IMG/VR virus record: IMGVR_UViG_3300036832_000548
Coordinates: 18,592-82,591 of that record
Reading direction: 5' to 3' (one strand)
Length of the DNA: 64,000 nt
Origin: a virus
A program made the translations under genes and the position numbers. Below, in pieces: positions 47,153-56,790 of the stretch. Positions within the stretch are counted from its first letter, which is position 1. Every line of letters begins with the position of its first letter. The notes beneath the pieces were generated by a model that saw only the letters and a list, made by a program, of their open reading frames with translations, did not search any database and was not told where the DNA came from.

Positions 47153-47316
47153 TTGCTCACCAACTCAATCTCGGCGCGCAGCCGGTCAATTAGCTTTTGT
47201 TGCTCCTGTCCCCACGCCCATAGGTCGTGGATCAATACCGCCGCAGTCGAAAAGGCCATGTGATGCGGCAATTCCCGCTCCACCCGCTTGCGCAAGTCGT
47301 CCATCTTGTCGCTCAT
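47149..47316 (-). CDS. 55-residue coiled-coil protein
   Basis: Translation from the ATG at 47316 gives MSDKMDDLRKRVERELPHHM and onward, ending LRAEIELVSK: a short helical protein without membrane segment. It is coupled by ATGA on both sides. Confidence 0.5.
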   Translation of the reverse strand: MSDKMDDLRKRVERELPHHMAFSTAAVLIHDLWAWGQEQQKLIDRLRAEIELVSK

Positions 47317-47717
47317 GCGCGCTCCTTAAACCATGGCGCGATGCGCTCGCCGTTGTAGTAGATGCGATAAGGCTCGGCGTCTTTTTCCTCGATCACATAA
47401 GCCACGCATTCCGCAAATCCTATGCGATGCAAGGCACGCAGCCGGTGGTGCCCGTCGATCAGCCAATCCTTTCCGCCGTCGCCAACAAGGATCAGCGGCG
47501 GCGCATCTCCCATGTGATCTGTGGCTAGCGAGCGGACTTTGGCTGGATCGACCTCGACGCGCTTGTTGTGCTCATAAAGCTCCCGCACATCGACCAAATA
47601 GAGTTTGTGCTTGCCAGCTTGGCAATCGTTCTTGGCCCGCGTTACGTTCCAACTGCCGACATCAGAGTCAAATGTCTCATCGCCAAGCTTCATGTTGGAC
47701 ACGATCAAGGGCTTCAT
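47313..47717 (-). CDS. ParB/Srx-domain protein
   Basis: The 134-residue product has VDVRELYEHNKRVEVDPAKV and WLIDGHHRLRALHRIGF, the GHHR motif of ParB/sulfiredoxin-fold nuclease-like proteins. Such proteins in phage early operons often modify DNA or act as nucleases. The function is inferred from the motif. Confidence 0.7.
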   Translation of the reverse strand: MKPLIVSNMKLGDETFDSDVGSWNVTRAKNDCQAGKHKLYLVDVRELYEHNKRVEVDPAKVRSLATDHMGDAPPLILVGDGGKDWLIDGHHRLRALHRIGFAECVAYVIEEKDAEPYRIYYNGERIAPWFKERA

Positions 47718-49045: not shown

Positions 49046-49236
49046 TTCGATCTCACTCCTTTGGTTGATCTTTGCAGGTTCCGAGGCGTATCAAGCGACC
49101 CTACCCACCACAGGTCGTCGCGCCGATTGGCTTCCGCCCACACAACGGCATCGTGTTCGCTCTGGAACGGCCCCAGATAGCTGAACCCGTCCTGCGGATT
49201 GCCGATGATAATGATGCAGATCTTAGGAACGCCCAT
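49042..49236 (-). CDS. 64-residue hypothetical protein
   Basis: The start at 49236 is preceded by GAGGGAACCG. The product is MGVPKICIIIIGNPQDGFSY and onward, ending RSTKGVRSK. The short beta pattern ICIIIIG is suggestive of a small alpha/beta fold. It overlaps RecT by 14 bp. Confidence 0.5.
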   Translation of the reverse strand: MGVPKICIIIIGNPQDGFSYLGPFQSEHDAVVWAEANRRDDLWWVGSLDTPRNLQRSTKGVRSK

Positions 49237-50344
49237 CGGTTCCCTCAGGATGCGCTTGCTGCTCGTCCCAGCCTGCGCGCCACTCAAGGGCTTCGCGCGC
49301 CCGTGTTGGATCTCGATACTCGATCGGGGTTGCTTTGCGCTGCATGCCCTTGGCTTGGTCAGCGCGACCGCGTTCGCGCGCAATCACCAGCAAATCTGGG
49401 GCGGTCGCCTGTTGGGGTTCTACTTTCGTTTCGGATTTTGCAGCCGTTTGCTGCGGTTCCTGATTCGTTTCCGTGTTCGAATCATCGGAGTGCTGCTCGC
49501 TTGGCGGCGATTCCGGTTCTGTCAAGTGGTCGACGATGGTTCGGTCAGCGTGGGCTTGGTCGTGCGCTTCCTGCACGGTGTCTGCTGGTGGACCGGCGAA
49601 ATGATCGAGCGTCGCGCCGCGGGCGGTCTCACTGCGAGCGCGGGACTGGGCGGTCGTCTCGCCCTCTTCATCTTCGTACATCTCCTCATCTTTGCGGATC
49701 AGATCATCGAGGTCAGACGACATGGGCAGAAGCCGCGACAGGACCCGGATCGCGGTCTTCATCTCCATTTCTTCCGTCCACATTTTCCAAGGCGCGTCCT
49801 CGCGCGAGGCGCGGCTCATGTTGCGGCGCTTGGCAATCTCACTAGGCGATAGTGGCGCGATAAAAACCCCGCCGTCCTTGGTCCCGGCTGCGGCGTAGAC
49901 AAGACGCTTCTTCTTGTCGGTGTGATCGTCGCCCGGAATATGTTTGAAATGCGGGCCGTTCTCGTCAGTCCAGTGTTCCCAATGGTCGCCATCGTAAACG
50001 ATATCCGTCGTCACCCATTTAAATTGCCCGCTATTGCGGAATTTTTTGAGCAGGCCTTGGTACATCGGCAGGTATTGGACCTTGTTCTTAAATGGCACCA
50101 ACGCGGCCTCGCGACCGTCAGGCAGCAAACCGTCCTGGGCACAACGCAGTGCGGAGTTGAACAGCGAGCCGCGGTCACAGGTGAGCAGGTCGTTATTGAG
50201 CTGCACGGCGGTCAGCACAACGCGGAAGAACCGTTCGGCTGGCATGTGCTTCGGGAGCGCATGTTGAAATTGCACACTGCGATCGTTGAGTTGATCGCGC
50301 AGGACCACCATCGGGTGCGCGGGTTTGTTGGCTTGATCGTTCAT
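49223..50344 (-). CDS. recT: RecT-family single-strand annealing protein
   Basis: This 373-residue protein has the RecT core: FFRVVLTAVQLNNDLLTCDR, SLFNSALRCAQDGLLPDGREAAL, QYLPMYQGLLKKFRNSG and WKMWTEEMEMKTAIRVLSR. The C terminus is a Gln/Glu-rich disordered tail (about 235-330). It acts with the YqaJ exonuclease at 54405. The start at 50344 has AAGGAG upstream. Confidence 0.85.
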   Translation of the reverse strand: MNDQANKPAHPMVVLRDQLNDRSVQFQHALPKHMPAERFFRVVLTAVQLNNDLLTCDRGSLFNSALRCAQDGLLPDGREAALVPFKNKVQYLPMYQGLLKKFRNSGQFKWVTTDIVYDGDHWEHWTDENGPHFKHIPGDDHTDKKKRLVYAAAGTKDGGVFIAPLSPSEIAKRRNMSRASREDAPWKMWTEEMEMKTAIRVLSRLLPMSSDLDDLIRKDEEMYEDEEGETTAQSRARSETARGATLDHFAGPPADTVQEAHDQAHADRTIVDHLTEPESPPSEQHSDDSNTETNQEPQQTAAKSETKVEPQQATAPDLLVIARERGRADQAKGMQRKATPIEYRDPTRAREALEWRAGWDEQQAHPEGTDGRS

Positions 50345-50365: not shown

Positions 50366-51041
50366 GGTGCCGCCGAGGGCAGTCGAGCGTCGGGCATCAA
50401 GGCCTCGCAGGCCCTCGGCGGCGATCTCGGCACCGATTTCCTGGGCATCATAGGACGTTTGGCCGAGATTTCTTTTTGGTGCCGCCGAGGGCAACTTGAA
50501 CTTGGGCATCATGGGTGACATGGCCCTCGGCGGCTTGCTCGGCGTGCAGTTTTTGGGAACCCACTAATTTCTGGCCAAGCAATTTCTTGGAGTTGGTGCC
50601 GCCGCGGGCAACCCGAAGGGGGGGATCATTCGGGGCATGGCCCGCAGCGGCGGTCTCGGCAGGGGATGCATGGGCATCACGAAGTTCGTGGCCGAGATTT
50701 TTGCGCTTGCGTTTTTTGGGGCCGCCGACGGCGCTTGCGATTTGGGGATCAACCGAGCAATGGCCATCGGCAGCGACCTCGGCACCCATGCCATGGGCAT
50801 CAAGAACTACATGGCCGAGATCATTGGTGCCGCCGAGGGCAGAGGAATCCTGGGCATCATGCGCTGCTTGGCCATCGGCGGCGATCTCGGCAAAGCGTCG
50901 CTGGGCATCATGGATCCGTTGGCCGAGACCATTCGAATAGATGCCGCCGGCATGGCTCCTCTGGGCATCAGCCGCATGCTGGCCGACGGCGATCTCGGCA
51001 GCGCCATTTTGGGCATCATTGCTCATGTGGCCGAGATCATT
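50366..51041 (-). repeat. Double-hairpin 108-bp repeat array 1 (six units)
   Basis: Six units, about 108 bp each, lie at 50366, 50478, 50595, 50718, 50826 and 50940 (the last is 102 bp). On the plus strand each is GGTGCCGCCGAGGGCA, variable 9-10 nt, TGGGCATCA, variable 9-10 nt, TGGCCNTCGGCGGC, GATCTCGGCA, variable, TGGGCATCA, variable, TGGCCGAGATCATT. The arms GCCGCCGAGGGC/GCCCTCGGCGGC and GATCTCGGC/GCCGAGATC make two stems with 30-nt loops. The sense strand is minus, in the operon that includes RecT. Unit 2 is degenerate. Confidence 0.85.
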
Positions 51042-51974
51042 CGTGGCTTGATCGACCCACTGTTCCCACAGGTCCACCAAGAATTGTTTGAAGGCGATCC
51101 GCAATCCGTCCTGGCGGCGATGACCGGGCGTCCATTCGGGATGCGATATCTCAGTGCGTATTCGGCGCGCGGCATAGACCTCGCCATAGCGTCCGTTGGG
51201 ATGACCTTCATCGGCCCCGGCCTTCGCTGCCGATATCCACTGCTTGTTCACGAGCCACAAGGCGATCGTGTACATCGTGGCGTATCGCTCACCCGAAAAC
51301 GGATTCGCGATCCATTCCTCCTTATCCAACTTACGCGGCCGCCACGTTTCCCGTTTCCAAGTCGATCCGGCGTGGCCATCATACGGTGCAAAGCCGAGAC
51401 GCTTCCAAAGCTTCTCCGGGTTCGCGTAGTTATCGAGCGGGCCCGCCTCCGCAACGATCAGGGCAAGGCCGAGGATGCCCGCGCCGGGGATCGACTCAAC
51501 CCACGGTGCAACGGGCAACTGCGCCGCGAGTTCCTCTATTCCAGCCGTTGAGTCGTCTCGCACTTCATCCATTGGCCCACGCGCGATGTCAGTCTTCTGC
51601 ACAATCGTGAGCAGATCGTGGGGCAAGTCCGTTTGAACAATCTCGCCGCTGCCGTTGGCGGCCTTCTTGTACACCGCGCGCGCCTCCTTGATCATCGCGG
51701 CAACCTTCTTGTTGTATTCCGCGCGAATGGCTTCCGACTCAGTCGGCTTCCAATCTGTAAAGTTGCGCCGGATATAGGACTCAAGAGCGCGGTCGATCTT
51801 TTGTTGAACTTTGATCGCGAACTTGCGCCGTCGCGCCAGCGTCACGATGTTCTTCACCAGCTCGTCGCGAGCACGAATTTGCAGCACCAGCGAAGGCAAG
51901 CCAATGGCGGAATTGCGCGCATCAATCAAAGCTTGAGCGCGGCGAGTGCGGTCGGCATTTGTTTGCTGTGTCAT
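50448..51974 (-). CDS. IS110 Tnp_20-like domain protein with repeat tail
   Basis: Residues about 150-300 resemble the C-terminal Transposase_20 domain of IS110 elements: WVESIPGAGILGLALIVAEAG, then KLWKRLGFAPYDGHAG. The N terminus (about 1-140) is a charged coiled coil with no visible DEDD catalytic domain. The last about 185 residues are in-frame copies of the 108-bp element (NDLGHxxxDAQxxxAEIAAxGQ pattern). The element's TGA-containing register is read as GAT here, so the protein reads through. It may be a DNA-binding helix-hairpin-helix protein. Confidence 0.6.
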   Translation of the reverse strand: MTQQTNADRTRRAQALIDARNSAIGLPSLVLQIRARDELVKNIVTLARRRKFAIKVQQKIDRALESYIRRNFTDWKPTESEAIRAEYNKKVAAMIKEARAVYKKAANGSGEIVQTDLPHDLLTIVQKTDIARGPMDEVRDDSTAGIEELAAQLPVAPWVESIPGAGILGLALIVAEAGPLDNYANPEKLWKRLGFAPYDGHAGSTWKRETWRPRKLDKEEWIANPFSGERYATMYTIALWLVNKQWISAAKAGADEGHPNGRYGEVYAARRIRTEISHPEWTPGHRRQDGLRIAFKQFLVDLWEQWVDQATNDLGHMSNDAQNGAAEIAVGQHAADAQRSHAGGIYSNGLGQRIHDAQRRFAEIAADGQAAHDAQDSSALGGTNDLGHVVLDAHGMGAEVAADGHCSVDPQIASAVGGPKKRKRKNLGHELRDAHASPAETAAAGHAPNDPPLRVARGGTNSKKLLGQKLVGSQKLHAEQAAEGHVTHDAQVQVALGGTKKKSRPNVL

Positions 51975-51995
51975 ATTGTGTGTCCCTTGTTGTTA

Positions 51996-52103
51996 GGTGC
52001 CGCCGAGGACATTCGACGTATGGGTATCACCCGAGCAACGGCCCTCGGCGGCGATCTCGGCGATCATACAATGGGCATCACTGGGGCTGTAGCCGAGATC
52101 ATT
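51996..52103 (-). repeat. Double-hairpin repeat, single unit
   Basis: One complete 108-bp unit fills the gap between the start of the gene at 51974 and the stop of the gene at 52103, whose TAA touches the unit's last base. The boxes TGGGTATCA and TGGGCATCA and the stem arms are all present. Confidence 0.85.
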
Positions 52104-52795
52104 TAGTGTCCTTCGATATACTTTTGCAGGCTCGCCACCGTCGCAACGACTGCGGTGTTCAACGCAGCCGGGGCTTGCTCGCGAGCTTCCCGATCAAACT
52201 GCTCGAGCACATTTGCTGGGACGATATCGCGGACCCGCGCATCCGTATTTGGCACGCGCGCGTAGCTGCGGATCTTGCACATGAGCAGCGTGTCGGCAGT
52301 CTCCTGCAGTGTGCTCAACACGGTCGAACCGACGACCGCAATGCGCTCCTCAATCGCGGCGTCCAGCTCCCGCCAGTGCAGGTCGCCAACCGGCGCGCCG
52401 TTGATCCTGCGGCGGTCATAGATGAGGCCAACGCTGCGCATCATCGCGGTTCGGTTGATCGCCTTGTCGCGGGCTGTGGGTGATTTGGTGCCGCCGCTGG
52501 CGTTTCTGCTTTGGGCATCAAGTCCACGCTGGCCAGCGGCAGCGGTCTTGGCACGCAGCGTGTGGGCATCAGCATGTACGCGGCCAAGATCATTCGAAAT
52601 GCGTTTGAGATAATCCAGCGCGAGCCCGCCGAGTAATTCCGGGCGGCGTTGAATTTTCTTGACGAAGCCGGTCAAGACTTTCGTCGGGTCGTTTTTGTTG
52701 TCATTCAACAAATTGACGGCAGCGACCCGCAGCTCGTTAGCGACGGTGTCGAGGCCGGCTTTCTTCAGAGCAGCTCCGATAGATGTGTCAGTCAT
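52103..52795 (-). CDS. Hypothetical early protein with inserted repeat
   Basis: The 230-residue product starts MTDTSIGAALKKAGLDTVANE. Residues about 68-104 are encoded by one 108-bp double-hairpin unit (NDLGRVHADAHTLR, then AAAGQRGLDAQSRNASGGTK), inserted in frame; the sequence before and after reads as one continuous protein. The start follows ACGGAGAAC. The rest is helical with no recognised domain. Confidence 0.6.
   Translation of the reverse strand: MTDTSIGAALKKAGLDTVANELRVAAVNLLNDNKNDPTKVLTGFVKKIQRRPELLGGLALDYLKRISNDLGRVHADAHTLRAKTAAAGQRGLDAQSRNASGGTKSPTARDKAINRTAMMRSVGLIYDRRRINGAPVGDLHWRELDAAIEERIAVVGSTVLSTLQETADTLLMCKIRSYARVPNTDARVRDIVPANVLEQFDREAREQAPAALNTAVVATVASLQKYIEGH
52487..52594 (-). 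repeat. Double-hairpin repeat inserted in a coding gene
   Basis: A 108-bp unit sits inside the gene at 52103, in frame and complete, but more diverged than the intergenic copies (the second stem reads GGTCTTGGC/GCCAAGATC). It behaves like in-frame palindromic elements such as those of Rickettsia. Confidence 0.8.
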
Positions 52796-52815
52796 TTTGT
52801 GTTCTCCGTTCAAAA

Positions 52816-53037
52816 GGTGCCGCTGAGGGCACCAGTCCCGTAGGCATCAACAAACAGATGGCCCGCAGCGGCGATCTCGGCAAAACTTGGTTGGGCATCA
52901 TGGATGCGATAGCCGAGATCATTTGTGTGGGTGCCGCCGAGGGCATTGCGTCGTTGGGCATCAGGCGTTCCTGGGCCCCCGGCGGCGGTCTCGGCACCGA
53001 TCCTCTGGGCATCAACGCGCGGATGGCCGAGATTTGT
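52816..53037 (-). repeat. Double-hairpin repeats, two units
   Basis: Units at 52816-52923 and 52930-53037 fill the gap between the gene starting at 52795 and the gene ending at 53039. The ribosome site ACGGAGAAC for the downstream gene lies just after the first unit. The variable segments of the two units differ from each other. Confidence 0.85.
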
Positions 53038-53038
53038 G

Positions 53039-53734
53039 TCATATCGTTACCCTGAAGATTTCGCTGAATGGCGGGCGGTGCGCCGCGTCAGATAGCTCGT
53101 TGCTGACGACTAGCACGCGATATCGAAAGCCGCGGCTTTGATTGATTACGCTGGTTCGCGCGAGATAGTTTTTCTGGAGCTGTTGCAGCCAAAAACTGGC
53201 GTGTTGCAGTTCCCCGTAAATCTTCTGCCGTCGGGCTGCATGATTGATCCGACGAAGAACGGACCCCTCATTGAACACAACGATGAAATCGCTGGCTGCA
53301 ACGTCGCGCGCCACGATCCGCATCGCGCCAACGCCATGCCCGGTGTAGCCGCAGGGATCTGATAGCCATAGGACGTAATCGTACCCACCGGCGCGTACGA
53401 CATCGACGACATCGGAATGCGTCTCGGCAATGAGGGCACTCGGAAACCGTTTGCGCAGCAAAAGCCGTTGCCTCCGACTCGCATCGCACAGGCAAACGTC
53501 CGCGCTCACGGCGAAGGCGATGTTGGTGACAATCTGCGGCGTTGGCGTCGACACAACGCCGTCATGCAAAACGCCGATACCATCACCAGCATTGGCATCG
53601 ATCAAAAGAAGTTTGTCGTGCAGATGAGCGGTCCTGACTTGCGCTTCAACGATCTTGCTCAACAACGAGTGTTTGATCCACGACCCCTCGCTGCGGCCCG
53701 CATTAGCGCGTTCGTTGGTCGAGGCGTGGGTCAT
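53039..53734 (-). CDS. Possible methyltransferase-like protein
   Basis: The 231-residue product starts MTHASTNERANAGRSEGSWIK, followed by KIVEAQVRTAHLHDKLLLIDANAGDG, a pattern similar to SAM-dependent methyltransferase-like proteins of the three-Cys-motif partner type. No downstream catalytic motif was confirmed. The start is 6 bases after a repeat unit and lacks a clear ribosome site, and translation may depend on the repeat structure. Confidence 0.5.
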   Translation of the reverse strand: MTHASTNERANAGRSEGSWIKHSLLSKIVEAQVRTAHLHDKLLLIDANAGDGIGVLHDGVVSTPTPQIVTNIAFAVSADVCLCDASRRQRLLLRKRFPSALIAETHSDVVDVVRAGGYDYVLWLSDPCGYTGHGVGAMRIVARDVAASDFIVVFNEGSVLRRINHAARRQKIYGELQHASFWLQQLQKNYLARTSVINQSRGFRYRVLVVSNELSDAAHRPPFSEIFRVTI

Positions 53735-53740
53735 CGTGTA

Positions 53741-54409
53741 GGTGCCGCCGCAGGCAGAGGCCGAGTGGGCATCATCGTCGTTGTGGCCCGCGGCGGCGAT
53801 CTCGGCGTTCCGCGTTTGGGCATCAAGCGATCGTTGGCCGAGAATTGTTGAAAGGCTGCCGCCGAGGGCATGACGATTTTGGGCATCAACGAACGACTGG
53901 CCATCGGCGGCGATCTCGGCAAGCGCCTTCTGGGCATCATCTGGCCTGTGGCCGAGATCATTCGAATGGGGGCCGCCGAGGGCAAGCACAGGATGGGCAT
54001 CACGGGTCGCGTGGCCCCCGACGGCGATCTCGGCACCCGAGTCATGGGCATCAAGTGGTCATGGGCCGAGATTATAGGTGCCGCCGAGGGCAACGATCCA
54101 TTGGGCATCACGCTGGCAACGGCCCTCGGCGGCGATCTCGGCATTCCATCATTGGACAGCAAGTCGTCGTTGGCCGAGAAGATTTTAGGTGCCGCCGAGG
54201 GCGCACCTCCCATGGGCATCAAGGACGGCGTGGCCCGCGGCGGCGATCTCGGCAACGGGTGGCTGGGCATCAGCCGTCTACTGGCCGAGATCATTCTGAT
54301 AGATGCCGCCGAGGGCATGAGCTGCTTGGGCATCAGCCAGCTTCTGGTCCTCGACGGCGATCTCGGCAGAGCTCGTATGGGCATCACTGGTGGATTGGCC
54401 GAGATCATT
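53741..54409 (-). repeat. Double-hairpin repeat array 2 (six units)
   Basis: Units begin at 53741, 53855, 53969, 54077, 54188 and 54302. The fourth has a perfect 12-bp first stem and the fifth a perfect 9-bp second stem. The array occupies the whole gap between the YqaJ exonuclease and the next gene. The TGA stop of the exonuclease falls inside the last unit (AAATGATCTCGG). Confidence 0.9.
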
Positions 54410-55325
54410 TGGTTGCTTCTTTACGTTCGTGAATTCGGAGAACGCGGACCTCGCGTGGGAGGACCGTATAGCCGGAAAAATTCGAGGTTTTGTAGGTGAC
54501 TTTCCATCCGTTAACGCCGGAGACTTGGGCCGCGTCACCCAATTTGTATTTTATCTGAGCCTCGATCTCGTCTTTGCGTTGGTCGAGCGAAGCGATCCGT
54601 TGCATCAGGGCGGCGCGTTCCGCGAGGATTTCCGGCAGCTCGTTGTCGCCAGACATGTCGACCATCTTATCGGTGGCTTCGCGTGGACTGATCAACTTGA
54701 TCAGCTCAGCATCCTTGCCGAAATCGGGCGCCGGCTCGTGACCGATCCGCATTAGCTCCCAAAAATTCTGGGCGGCTGTCTTGATCCGCTCCTCGGCACC
54801 GGCGTGGCGTGGCAATTCCCTGATGCAGACATCGAGATCATAGTTGTAAACCACGGCGGCCACCCCGAAGGCGGCGTCGGCCAGCAGCATCTCGGTGAGC
54901 AGCTGCAGCTCGATCCACAATGGGGTGATATTTCCGTTGTCCCAATCGCGCTCAAAGATGTGCGGATAGGCGGTTTTAGTTTGCAGGATGCCGAGGCCGC
55001 GCGGATCGCCGTGGATAAAGAAATCTGGCGTAGCGCCCAACTGCAGCTCAGGGGCACGGAAATATGTCTGGCATTTCTCAATGATCCAATCGTCGTGTTC
55101 CTCTCCGACACGCTGGGCAACGACGTTTTCGAGCAGGCGCCCGCGGCGGATCGGTTTCGTTTCCTCGAATTCGAACTCCATCCCATTGTGCTGATAGTAA
55201 AGCTTGAGCGCGGTGACATACGGGTGCAGGCCGAACAGCGCCGCCACCACGGAGGCGGTGATGTCCGGCTTGCGCAGCTCCAGCCACTGCGGGCGACTCA
55301 GGATTGGGATGCGTTCGACGATCAT
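54405..55325 (-). CDS. YqaJ-type viral recombinase exonuclease
   Basis: The 306-residue protein has the YqaJ signatures: VAALFGLHPY, RRGRLLENV (Glu about 66), GATPDFFIHGD (Asp about 101) and LQTKTAY (Gln-x-Lys about 115-117). A coiled-coil segment (about 235-265) follows. It is the 5'-3' exonuclease partner of RecT. It is the first gene of the minus-strand early operon; the start at 55325 lies about 100 bp from the divergent promoter. Confidence 0.85.
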   Translation of the reverse strand: MIVERIPILSRPQWLELRKPDITASVVAALFGLHPYVTALKLYYQHNGMEFEFEETKPIRRGRLLENVVAQRVGEEHDDWIIEKCQTYFRAPELQLGATPDFFIHGDPRGLGILQTKTAYPHIFERDWDNGNITPLWIELQLLTEMLLADAAFGVAAVVYNYDLDVCIRELPRHAGAEERIKTAAQNFWELMRIGHEPAPDFGKDAELIKLISPREATDKMVDMSGDNELPEILAERAALMQRIASLDQRKDEIEAQIKYKLGDAAQVSGVNGWKVTYKTSNFSGYTVLPREVRVLRIHERKEATK

Positions 55326-55493: not shown

Positions 55494-55763
55494 ATGGCAA
55501 AAGAGAGACTTGACGCAGCCATTCTGGCGCTGCGGGAAGAGAATTGGCTACCTAGAATCGCGCAGCGACTCAATTTGACCCGGCAGGCGACCTCGAAATG
55601 GCGCCGCGTTCCGGCAGATCGTGTGCGCGAGGTCGCCAAGATCACGGATTATCCCCTGGCATTTTTACGTCCTGATCTTTACGAGGACATGCCATCCAAG
55701 CCGCCCAAGCTGGCGAAGCCGAAAGCTCGCCGCCGCAATCATCGTGCTGTTGCGCATGCTTGA
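55494..55763 (+). CDS. Cro/YdaS-like helix-turn-helix regulator
   Basis: The 89-residue product has IAQRLNLTRQATSKWRRVPADRVREV and FLRPDLY, the form of YdaS/Cro-type phage regulators. An upstream TTG at 55479 would add five residues. It is divergent from the YqaJ operon and is likely part of the lysis-lysogeny switch. Confidence 0.75.
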   Translation: MAKERLDAAILALREENWLPRIAQRLNLTRQATSKWRRVPADRVREVAKITDYPLAFLRPDLYEDMPSKPPKLAKPKARRRNHRAVAHA

Positions 55764-55771
55764 GGGGTATT

Positions 55772-56359
55772 ATGGGCCAGCCATTCGACGGTCTTCCGCG
55801 CGCCCATTTCCGCGCAATCCTGGCTGACCCGCCGTGGAACTTTGAGACCTATAGCGAGGCTGGTCGCGATCGTTCTCCCAATTATCCGCTGATGACGGCG
55901 CAGGGCTTGCGCGATCTGCCGGTCAAAGACCTCGCGGCGCCTGATTGCGTGCTGTTCATGTGGGTTACATGGCCAATGCTCGAGCAATCGCTGGCGCTGA
56001 TTCGCGCGTGGGGGTTCACCTACAAGACGTGCGGGTTTGACTGGATGAAGGCGCACGCGGGCCAGATCGATATGTTCCGCGACGACGCGGATGGCCAGGT
56101 TGGGCTTGGCTACTGGACGCGCAGCAACAGCGAGCCGTGCCTGTTGGCAACGCGCGGCAAGCCCAGACGGGTCAACGCTGATGTCCGCATGGGCATCATC
56201 GAGCCGCGGCGCGAGCACAGCCGCAAGCCTTATTGCATCTATGACCGCATCGAGCGGCTCGTCCAAGGACCATATATTGAATTATTTGCTCGCTGGCAGC
56301 GTCCGGGCTGGACCGCTTGGGGCAATGAGACTGACCGATTCAAGGAGGCTGCGGAGTGA
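55772..56359 (+). CDS. MT-A70 adenine methyltransferase
   Basis: The start at 55772 follows GAGGGG. The 195-residue protein carries ILADPPWNFETYSE (the DPPW catalytic motif, residues about 14-17) and SNSEPCLLATRGKPRR, as in phage MT-A70-type N6-adenine methylases. It may protect phage DNA or regulate genes. Its stop overlaps the next start (GTGA). Confidence 0.85.
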   Translation: MGQPFDGLPRAHFRAILADPPWNFETYSEAGRDRSPNYPLMTAQGLRDLPVKDLAAPDCVLFMWVTWPMLEQSLALIRAWGFTYKTCGFDWMKAHAGQIDMFRDDADGQVGLGYWTRSNSEPCLLATRGKPRRVNADVRMGIIEPRREHSRKPYCIYDRIERLVQGPYIELFARWQRPGWTAWGNETDRFKEAAE

Positions 56360-56790
56360 ATGTCCTCGATTTATTCAGCGGGATCGGCGGCTTCTCACTC
56401 GGACTCGAACGGGCCGGAATGCGAACTACCGCTTTTTGCGAGTCTGATGCGTTCTGCCGGCGCGTCCTCGCCAAGCACTGGCCCGACATCCTCTGCTACG
56501 ACGATGTCACAACTCTCACTGCCGCTCGACTTAGCGCCGATGGCATTGACAGCATTGATCTCATCTGCGGCGGATTTCCCTGCCAAGACATCTCCGTTGC
56601 CGGCAAAGGCGCAGGACTTGCTGGCGAGCGATCGGGCCTATGGCTCGAGTTCGCGCGAATTGTTGGCGAGCTACGACCCCGTTACGTCATCGTGGAGAAC
56701 GTCGCAGCTCTGCTTGGACGGGGACTATCAACAATTCTCGGAGACCTGGCCGCGCTCGGGTTTGATGCGGAATGTGGGTCGAGTGGTTGA
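56356..56790 (+). CDS. Cytosine-5 DNA methylase N-terminal part
   Basis: The 144-residue frame carries motif I (LDLFSGIGGFSLGLERAG), motif IV (GGFPCQDIS, with the catalytic Cys) and the ENV motif VI. It stops after about LGFDAECGSSG, before the target-recognition region. The C-terminal motif RLIALGNGLVPQI lies in the next frame. The locus is therefore an internally deleted, frameshifted Dcm-type gene and may be inactive. Confidence 0.7.
   Translation: MNVLDLFSGIGGFSLGLERAGMRTTAFCESDAFCRRVLAKHWPDILCYDDVTTLTAARLSADGIDSIDLICGGFPCQDISVAGKGAGLAGERSGLWLEFARIVGELRPRYVIVENVAALLGRGLSTILGDLAALGFDAECGSSG

Follow-up and report, generated by a model that had tools for sequence, protein, structure and literature searches.

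We analysed a window of 64,000 nucleotides, namely bases 18592-82591 of the 82.6-kb IMG/VR virus record IMGVR_UViG_3300036832_000548. Sixteen double-hairpin units lie there on the minus strand of a phage recombination operon, around a gene for a Nop-domain Tas protein. An initial annotation of this DNA had located units at five places (6, 1, 1, 2 and 6 per site) and all 16 were confirmed; it had overlooked the minus sense strand, the box C/D rules in the loops and the central Tas gene, and had proposed no function. The units and the gene that they surround are as follows (window coordinates):

53741-54409, minus strand: TIGR sub-array 1; 6 units, guides 1-12; flanked by the RecE/YqaJ-like exonuclease gene and gene 53042-53737.
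52816-53037, minus strand: TIGR sub-array 2; 2 units, guides 13-16.
52487-52594, minus strand: single unit, guides 17-18; in-frame insertion in the linker of gene XY.
51996-52103, minus strand: single unit, guides 19-20; between gene XY and tas.
51039-51974, minus strand: tasA, 312 aa; Tas protein resembling Nop and the IS110 RNA-binding domain (RBD), without nuclease domain; amid the sub-arrays.
50366-51041, minus strand: TIGR sub-array 3; 6 units, guides 21-32; between tas and recT.

Each unit is made of two minus-strand hairpins that abut with no linker between them, and the 16 units yield 32 guides. As minus-strand features the five sites span 53743-54409, 52818-53037, 52489-52594, 51998-52103 and 50368-51041. 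The hairpin consensus is GGCCA, 9 variable nt (spacer A), the constant core TGATGCCCA, 9 variable nt (spacer B) and TGCC. Both closing stems (GATCTC/GAGATC in hairpin 1, GCCGCCGAG/CTCGGCGGC in hairpin 2) and the core agree with the initial description, the flanks of the core being exactly 9 nt each. A box C (CCA) and a box D (TG) bound nearly all 9-nt spacers in the window; degenerate loops were found in guides 26, 28, 29 and 32 of sub-array 3 and in guide 5. When 9 units were folded as minus-strand RNA, two hairpins formed in 9/9, with z-scores of -1.0 to -5.3 against dinucleotide shuffles (-2.7 or lower in 7/9). The first eight stem positions are paired in 91% of the cells of the window for hairpin 1 and 96% for hairpin 2. 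Shifting the stem register by 1-3 bases reduces pairing to 22-54%, except for a G/C-periodic shift of hairpin 2 (79%). Two units show compensatory stem changes: GATCTC/GAGATC is replaced by TTGCTT/GAGCAA in unit 15 and GAG/CTC by GCT/AGC in unit 9. The earlier proposal of a structured nucleic-acid element, presenting variable sequences between constant arms and cores, was borne out; relatives retain the hairpins, with stem sequences that vary by locus.

TIGR arrays carry two short spacers, each set between a box C (CCA) and a box D (UG), beside a gene for a Nop-domain Tas protein, and are built either of dual repeats or of stem-loops (Faure et al. 2025, PMC12045711). At the present locus a Nop-domain Tas gene adjoins the array, two 9-nt spacers stand between box C and box D, and palindromic stems replace the edge repeats. 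It is nearly certain that the units form a stem-loop TIGR array with TasA alongside and encode its 32 tigRNA guides (CCA-9 nt-TGATGCCCA-9 nt-TG). The initial annotation held that no named element has such a layout, wrongly, as it is that of the published stem-loop TIGR array (PMC12045711). A family profile built on 23 TasA homologues matched TasR (PDB 9mty, E=1.7e-20) and TasH (21kl, E=3.2e-6); IS110 chains were absent from its matches at E<=1. The AlphaFold model of TasA has a pLDDT of 90, and Foldseek ranked 9mty, 9w02 and 9vzx (TasR/TasH) first and IS621 afterwards. The protein was classed as TasA because it has no nuclease domain; its reading frame continues into the array and its true C-terminus is uncertain. 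An IS110 transposon was rejected: the 312-aa protein has no DEDD RuvC-like recombinase domain, and its PF02371 match falls below the cut-off. A CRISPR array was rejected as well, given dual 9-nt spacers with two kinds of boundary and a same-strand target model that produced no excess of matches. A search against Rfam matched nothing, and no sigma-70-like promoter was found for the array.

Results beyond those already published rest on 25-30 related IMG/VR phage contigs, found by scanning IMG/VR for the hairpin core and by profile search. Single-sequence searches of IMG/VR and GTDB contigs for Tas homologues were unsuccessful and the IMG/VR repeat-pattern scan succeeded; a hairpin-pattern scan of genome contigs gave lone, scattered, chance-like matches. 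Tas homologues lie beside such arrays in 24 further phage contigs, and two more distant homologues occur in named phages: L004 5644-6540 (Arthrobacter phage Talia1610) and L005 5488-6684 (Rhizobium phage RHph_X2_25). Both are annotated as hypothetical proteins, and no such array was detected in their vicinity; since these phages have been isolated, they might serve as laboratory systems. Paired hairpins occur in about 14 close relatives (44-61% identity), most of which combine two stems specific to the locus with pitches alternating between ~48-52 and 57-65 nt. In relatives farther removed the hairpins are single, each with its own stem, which is the form described by Faure et al.; the paired unit therefore looks like a derived variant. 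As in the window, the genes flanking the arrays of relatives are recE/yqaJ, recT, tas and gene XY.

The spacers contain a covariation signal. Among the 81 position pairs between spacers A and B, complementarity of A9 with B9 is the only one to stand out (chi2 p=9e-20, 265 guides). It is found in 127 of 254 non-redundant guides against 61 expected, and in 167 of 340 guides against 82 expected in an enlarged set, and it persists when close and distant loci are taken separately. If A and B read opposite strands, complementary A9 and B9 imply half-targets that overlap by 1 bp. We regard as well supported, from comparison of the guides, a target of 17 bp made of A1-8, a centre and the reverse complement of B1-8, in which the half-sites would share the central base pair. 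A direct RNA-RNA contact between A9 and B9 is less favoured, because adjacent-gene matches sought with a free centre have a centre equal to A9 or to the complement of B9. Faure et al. saw no A-B covariation for TasR (PMC12045711), and in our own reading of a TasH dual-repeat control array, that of Salicola phage CGphi29, spacer ends are complementary in 3/10. One multi-guide locus, L042 6884-7292, is alone in having 0/6 guides with A9-B9 purine-pyrimidine complementarity and may follow another spacing rule.

Candidate targets were found in the genes beside the units. The features concerned in the window are:

54405-55325, minus strand: yqaJ/recE-like recombination exonuclease gene; PF09588 E=3.5e-10, phrog_434; upstream flanking gene.
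49223-50344, minus strand: recT, RecT-like annealase; PF03837 E=2e-31, phrog_148; downstream flank and putative target family of guide 30.
50490-50525, minus strand: hairpin 2 of unit 15, giving guide 30; spacers TGTCACCCA (A) and AGTTCAAGT (B); the predicted 17-nt target codes for QFKWVT of RecT.
50009-50025, minus strand: counterpart of the guide 30 target in the own recT allele; 4 mismatches, each synonymous.

The best plain matches of guides sat in guide-adjacent genes with mismatches at third codon positions, and for this reason a test in reading frame was adopted, in which guides were compared with alleles of recT, yqaJ, tas and XY (a later set added 26 recT and 67 yqaJ loci). The null was obtained by swapping spacer B within loci, and the statistics ignore phylogeny. 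On 15 contigs there were 9 matches with zero nonsynonymous differences against a null of 1.35 +/- 1.39. The enlarged test gave 12 such matches in adjacent genes, representing ~9 independent lineages, against a null mean of 1.2 and maximum of 3. All 12 share one orientation, the coding strand reading B8-centre-rc(A8), where rc is the reverse complement. Adjacent genes in the opposite orientation gave 1 match (null 1.1), and non-adjacent genes gave 5 and 1 in the two orientations (null 3.3 and 2.7). Two matches are exact at 17/17: a guide ahead of tas in G005 with the tas of G002-G004, and a guide ahead of recT in L309 with the recT of L300, on which no units were found. One exact match aside, targets in tas alone did not exceed the null, and self-targets inside the window did not exceed chance.

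The matches obey a pair rule. Hairpin 1 matched the upstream gene in 3/70 cases and the downstream gene in 0/62; hairpin 2 matched the downstream gene in 6/62 and the upstream gene in 0/68. Both guides of one unit were resolved, to yqaJ and recT, in G003 and G025. A separate case departs from this rule: in G009 (L021 2229 and 1939) 16/17 positions of a hairpin 1 guide that follows tas fit a gene of the same genome, the next one downstream. Among G001, G003 and G026, the homologous recT guides vary solely at synonymous positions of the HFKHVP codons, from which we conclude that guides follow real alleles. The carrier's own allele is a worse match than that of another phage in 11 of the 12 cases and ties in 1, a comparison partly biased by the choice of the best of 19-68 alleles. 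For guide 30, the 12 exact 17-mer matches found in IMG/VR were treated as chance because 0/12 lies in a recT locus. Taken together, these alignments give good support to orthologues of the flanking genes in rival phages as natural targets, with one guide per flank.

The units also vary in presence between phages. The yqaJ and recT genes adjoin without any unit in L257, L258, L261, L275 and L288, and their junction holds exactly one double hairpin in G001, G003, G025 and G026. In the G025 (27-kb) and G026 (55-kb) records the unit is present and no tas was detected, the contigs being fragments, so that missing tas genes or units are not proven. Compared with the unit-less L275, G025 is 98-100% identical deeper in recT and 82% identical in the first 130 bp after the unit; these same 130 bp are 92% identical to the unit-bearing G026. 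G001 and G003 are 99% identical just ahead of the unit and ~80% farther away. The downstream flank of G025 is mosaic and its upstream flank is not donor-like. This peak of identity around the unit resembles co-conversion. In T4-like intronless homing the target lies hundreds of bp away and flanks are co-converted (PMC2988022). Here the putative target lies in the neighbouring gene of related phages, including element-free ones, and the carrier's allele differs from it; those mismatches suggest immunity of the own allele.

As the probable model we favour one of intronless homing or marker exclusion that is guided by RNA and operates between related phages. The minus strand would be transcribed and processed into paired stem-loop tigRNAs, used by the TasA encoded among them, and each guide would specify one 17-bp DNA site, with spacer A on one strand and spacer B on the other. 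The double hairpin would be a mobile unit in the gene junctions of the recombination operon (recE/yqaJ, XY, tas, recT). At each junction, hairpin 1 would address the upstream gene and hairpin 2 the downstream gene, in the alleles of related phages, the carrier being spared by synonymous differences in its own alleles. During mixed infection TasA would bind and unwind the flanking genes of the rival. These alleles would be silenced or damaged and then converted from the carrier, by which the unit would be copied; the operon itself could supply a RecE-like exonuclease and RecT for the conversion. The scheme presupposes that DNA is bound, that a break or a block sets off conversion, and that selection favours spread. 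In its most specific form, a junction unit of ~110 bp with one guide per flanking gene would spread through TasA-dependent exclusion and RecE/RecT conversion, without a dedicated nuclease and also into phages lacking tas; this version we advance only tentatively, as plausible but short of probable.

Several observations weigh against this model, among them the fragmentary contigs and the choice among alleles mentioned above. TasA has no nuclease domain, which leaves an initiating break unexplained. A general 18-mer search of 2.4 Mb for abutting 18-bp targets gave no excess and an unframed 17-mer search only a slight one, the targeting signal emerging only with reading frame and adjacency. Recognised targets amount to only ~12 of 340 guides (~9 independent lineages) and to 1 of 32 in the window. 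Guide 30 still has 2 synonymous mismatches with its best known allele, the recT of L288, and the guides of G006 and G009 fit their own genomes nearly as well. The targeting pattern and the pair rule were noticed during exploration and then counted on overlapping data.

The main alternative to homing, though we judge it unlikely, is silencing between phages without mobility. TasA-tigRNAs would block transcription or replication of the recombination genes of rivals, and units would adjoin these genes only since guides arise by copying local alleles during recombination. The lack of a nuclease in TasA is consistent with it, as are targets that are functional alleles of recT, yqaJ, tas and XY, mismatched in the carrier; a nuclease-free interference was proposed by Faure et al. 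(PMC12045711). Silencing alone leaves unexplained the one guide per flank, the empty sites, the units without a detected tas and the identity peak.

Somewhat less probable again, and compatible with homing, is a unit resembling a bridge RNA, in which both hairpins would work as a single RNA bridging two DNA sites, in the manner of the two loops of an IS110 bridge RNA. The two tigRNA hairpins do abut without a linker, their guides address both sides of one junction, and the half-targets overlap, as do those of the IS621 target guides at the core dinucleotide (PMC11208158). However, a DEDD recombinase domain is missing, spacers of hairpins 1 and 2 do not covary in 87 pairs, and processing of the published stem-loop array yields single hairpins (PMC12045711).

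Self-regulation, in which guides would tolerate mismatches and act on adjacent genes of the same phage (for example by lowering recET or tas), appears improbable. Guides do adjoin the genes that they match, and matches in the own genome have 1-4 mismatches, nearly all synonymous; yet guides of that kind ought to keep pace with their own gene, and the own allele was never the single best in the 12 cases. Finally, in-frame peptide repeats (LGH..DAQ..AEIAADG) appended to Tas and other phage proteins can practically be dismissed as the primary role of the units, for although spacings in the window are mostly multiples of three and long frames traverse units, stops are not avoided in the array frame (3 against 5.1 +/- 2.1 in shuffles, hence no sign of the protein selection that the initial annotation had considered), the frames of relatives are interrupted by spacings of 49 and 62, and their tas genes stop ahead of the array.

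Other genes of the operon and its surroundings were also considered:

52103-52813, minus strand: gene XY; two-domain helical protein with a guide unit in its linker.
53042-53737, minus strand: gene between sub-arrays 1 and 2; family search empty.

Gene XY lies directly upstream of tas in 11 relatives and possibly encodes a Tas partner; family and fold searches with it gave nothing confident. Its linker is variable and predicted to be disordered in relatives. The linker unit is absent in most of them, and a hairpin occupies the same linker in G012 and G013. In all, XY carries in-frame linker guide hairpins in three genomes (XY sites: window 52103-52813, minus strand; L203 14716-15390; L227 7411-8064). 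The gene at 53042-53737 matched neither Pfam nor PHROG, and the related contigs contained no homologue of it; its motifs DANAGDGIG and DPCGYTG could suggest a nucleotide-binding or methyltransferase fold. A ParB-like gene is located at 47313-47717 (minus strand), ~1.5 kb past recT, and ParB-like genes are reported in operons with tasA (Faure et al., PMC12045711). Adjacent genes for MT-A70 adenine and C5 cytosine DNA methylases occupy 55760-56790 on the plus strand, opposite to that of the array operon.

Among known systems, the closest is the TIGR-Tas stem-loop array with TasA on a Peromyscus gut contig (PMC12045711). Both have a Nop-domain Tas without nuclease, a phage location, stem-loops with two ~9-nt spacers between box C (CCA) and box D (UG), and several sub-arrays around tas. 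In contrast, the hairpins described here form fixed pairs whose two stems are conserved at each locus, the last spacer bases covary, single units are also present within a gene and at further gene junctions, and natural targets are visible in the flanking genes of related phages. The dual-repeat arrays of TIGR-TasR/TasH (PDB 9mty, 21kl/9vzx) share the boxes and a homologous protein, and their spacers A and B read opposite DNA strands, as is predicted here; they differ from the present system, which has no nuclease, palindromic stems rather than edge repeats, and a predicted 17-bp overlapping target rather than abutting halves. T4-like free-standing homing endonucleases (segG, mobE, segF; PMC2988022) are similar in that an intergenic element targets the neighbouring gene of a related phage. 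Here, however, a guide RNA would recognise the target, the mobile unit would be an RNA gene of ~110 bp, and the effector is encoded elsewhere, without a known nuclease. IS621, with its IS110 bridge RNA, has two guide loops per RNA, each reading both strands, and a related RNA-binding domain. According to the pairings in PMC11208158, core positions 8 and 9 fall within both of its target guides, an overlap of 2 bp compared with a predicted 1 bp here; unlike IS621, the present system has no DEDD recombinase and no donor/target transposition, and many units per genome.

The discoverers of TIGR-Tas identified neither genuine spacer targets nor the origin of spacers (PMC12045711). Our results suggest the first well-supported natural targets for TIGR-Tas, and units that spread like RNA-guided homing elements. 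In one clade the targets would be readable from sequence, as orthologues of the genes beside the unit, which offers a concrete candidate function, RNA-guided homing or marker exclusion. The predicted targeting rule, a 17-bp overlapping site, is unlike that of TasR. The paired units also resemble in structure the IS110 bridge RNA with its two loops.

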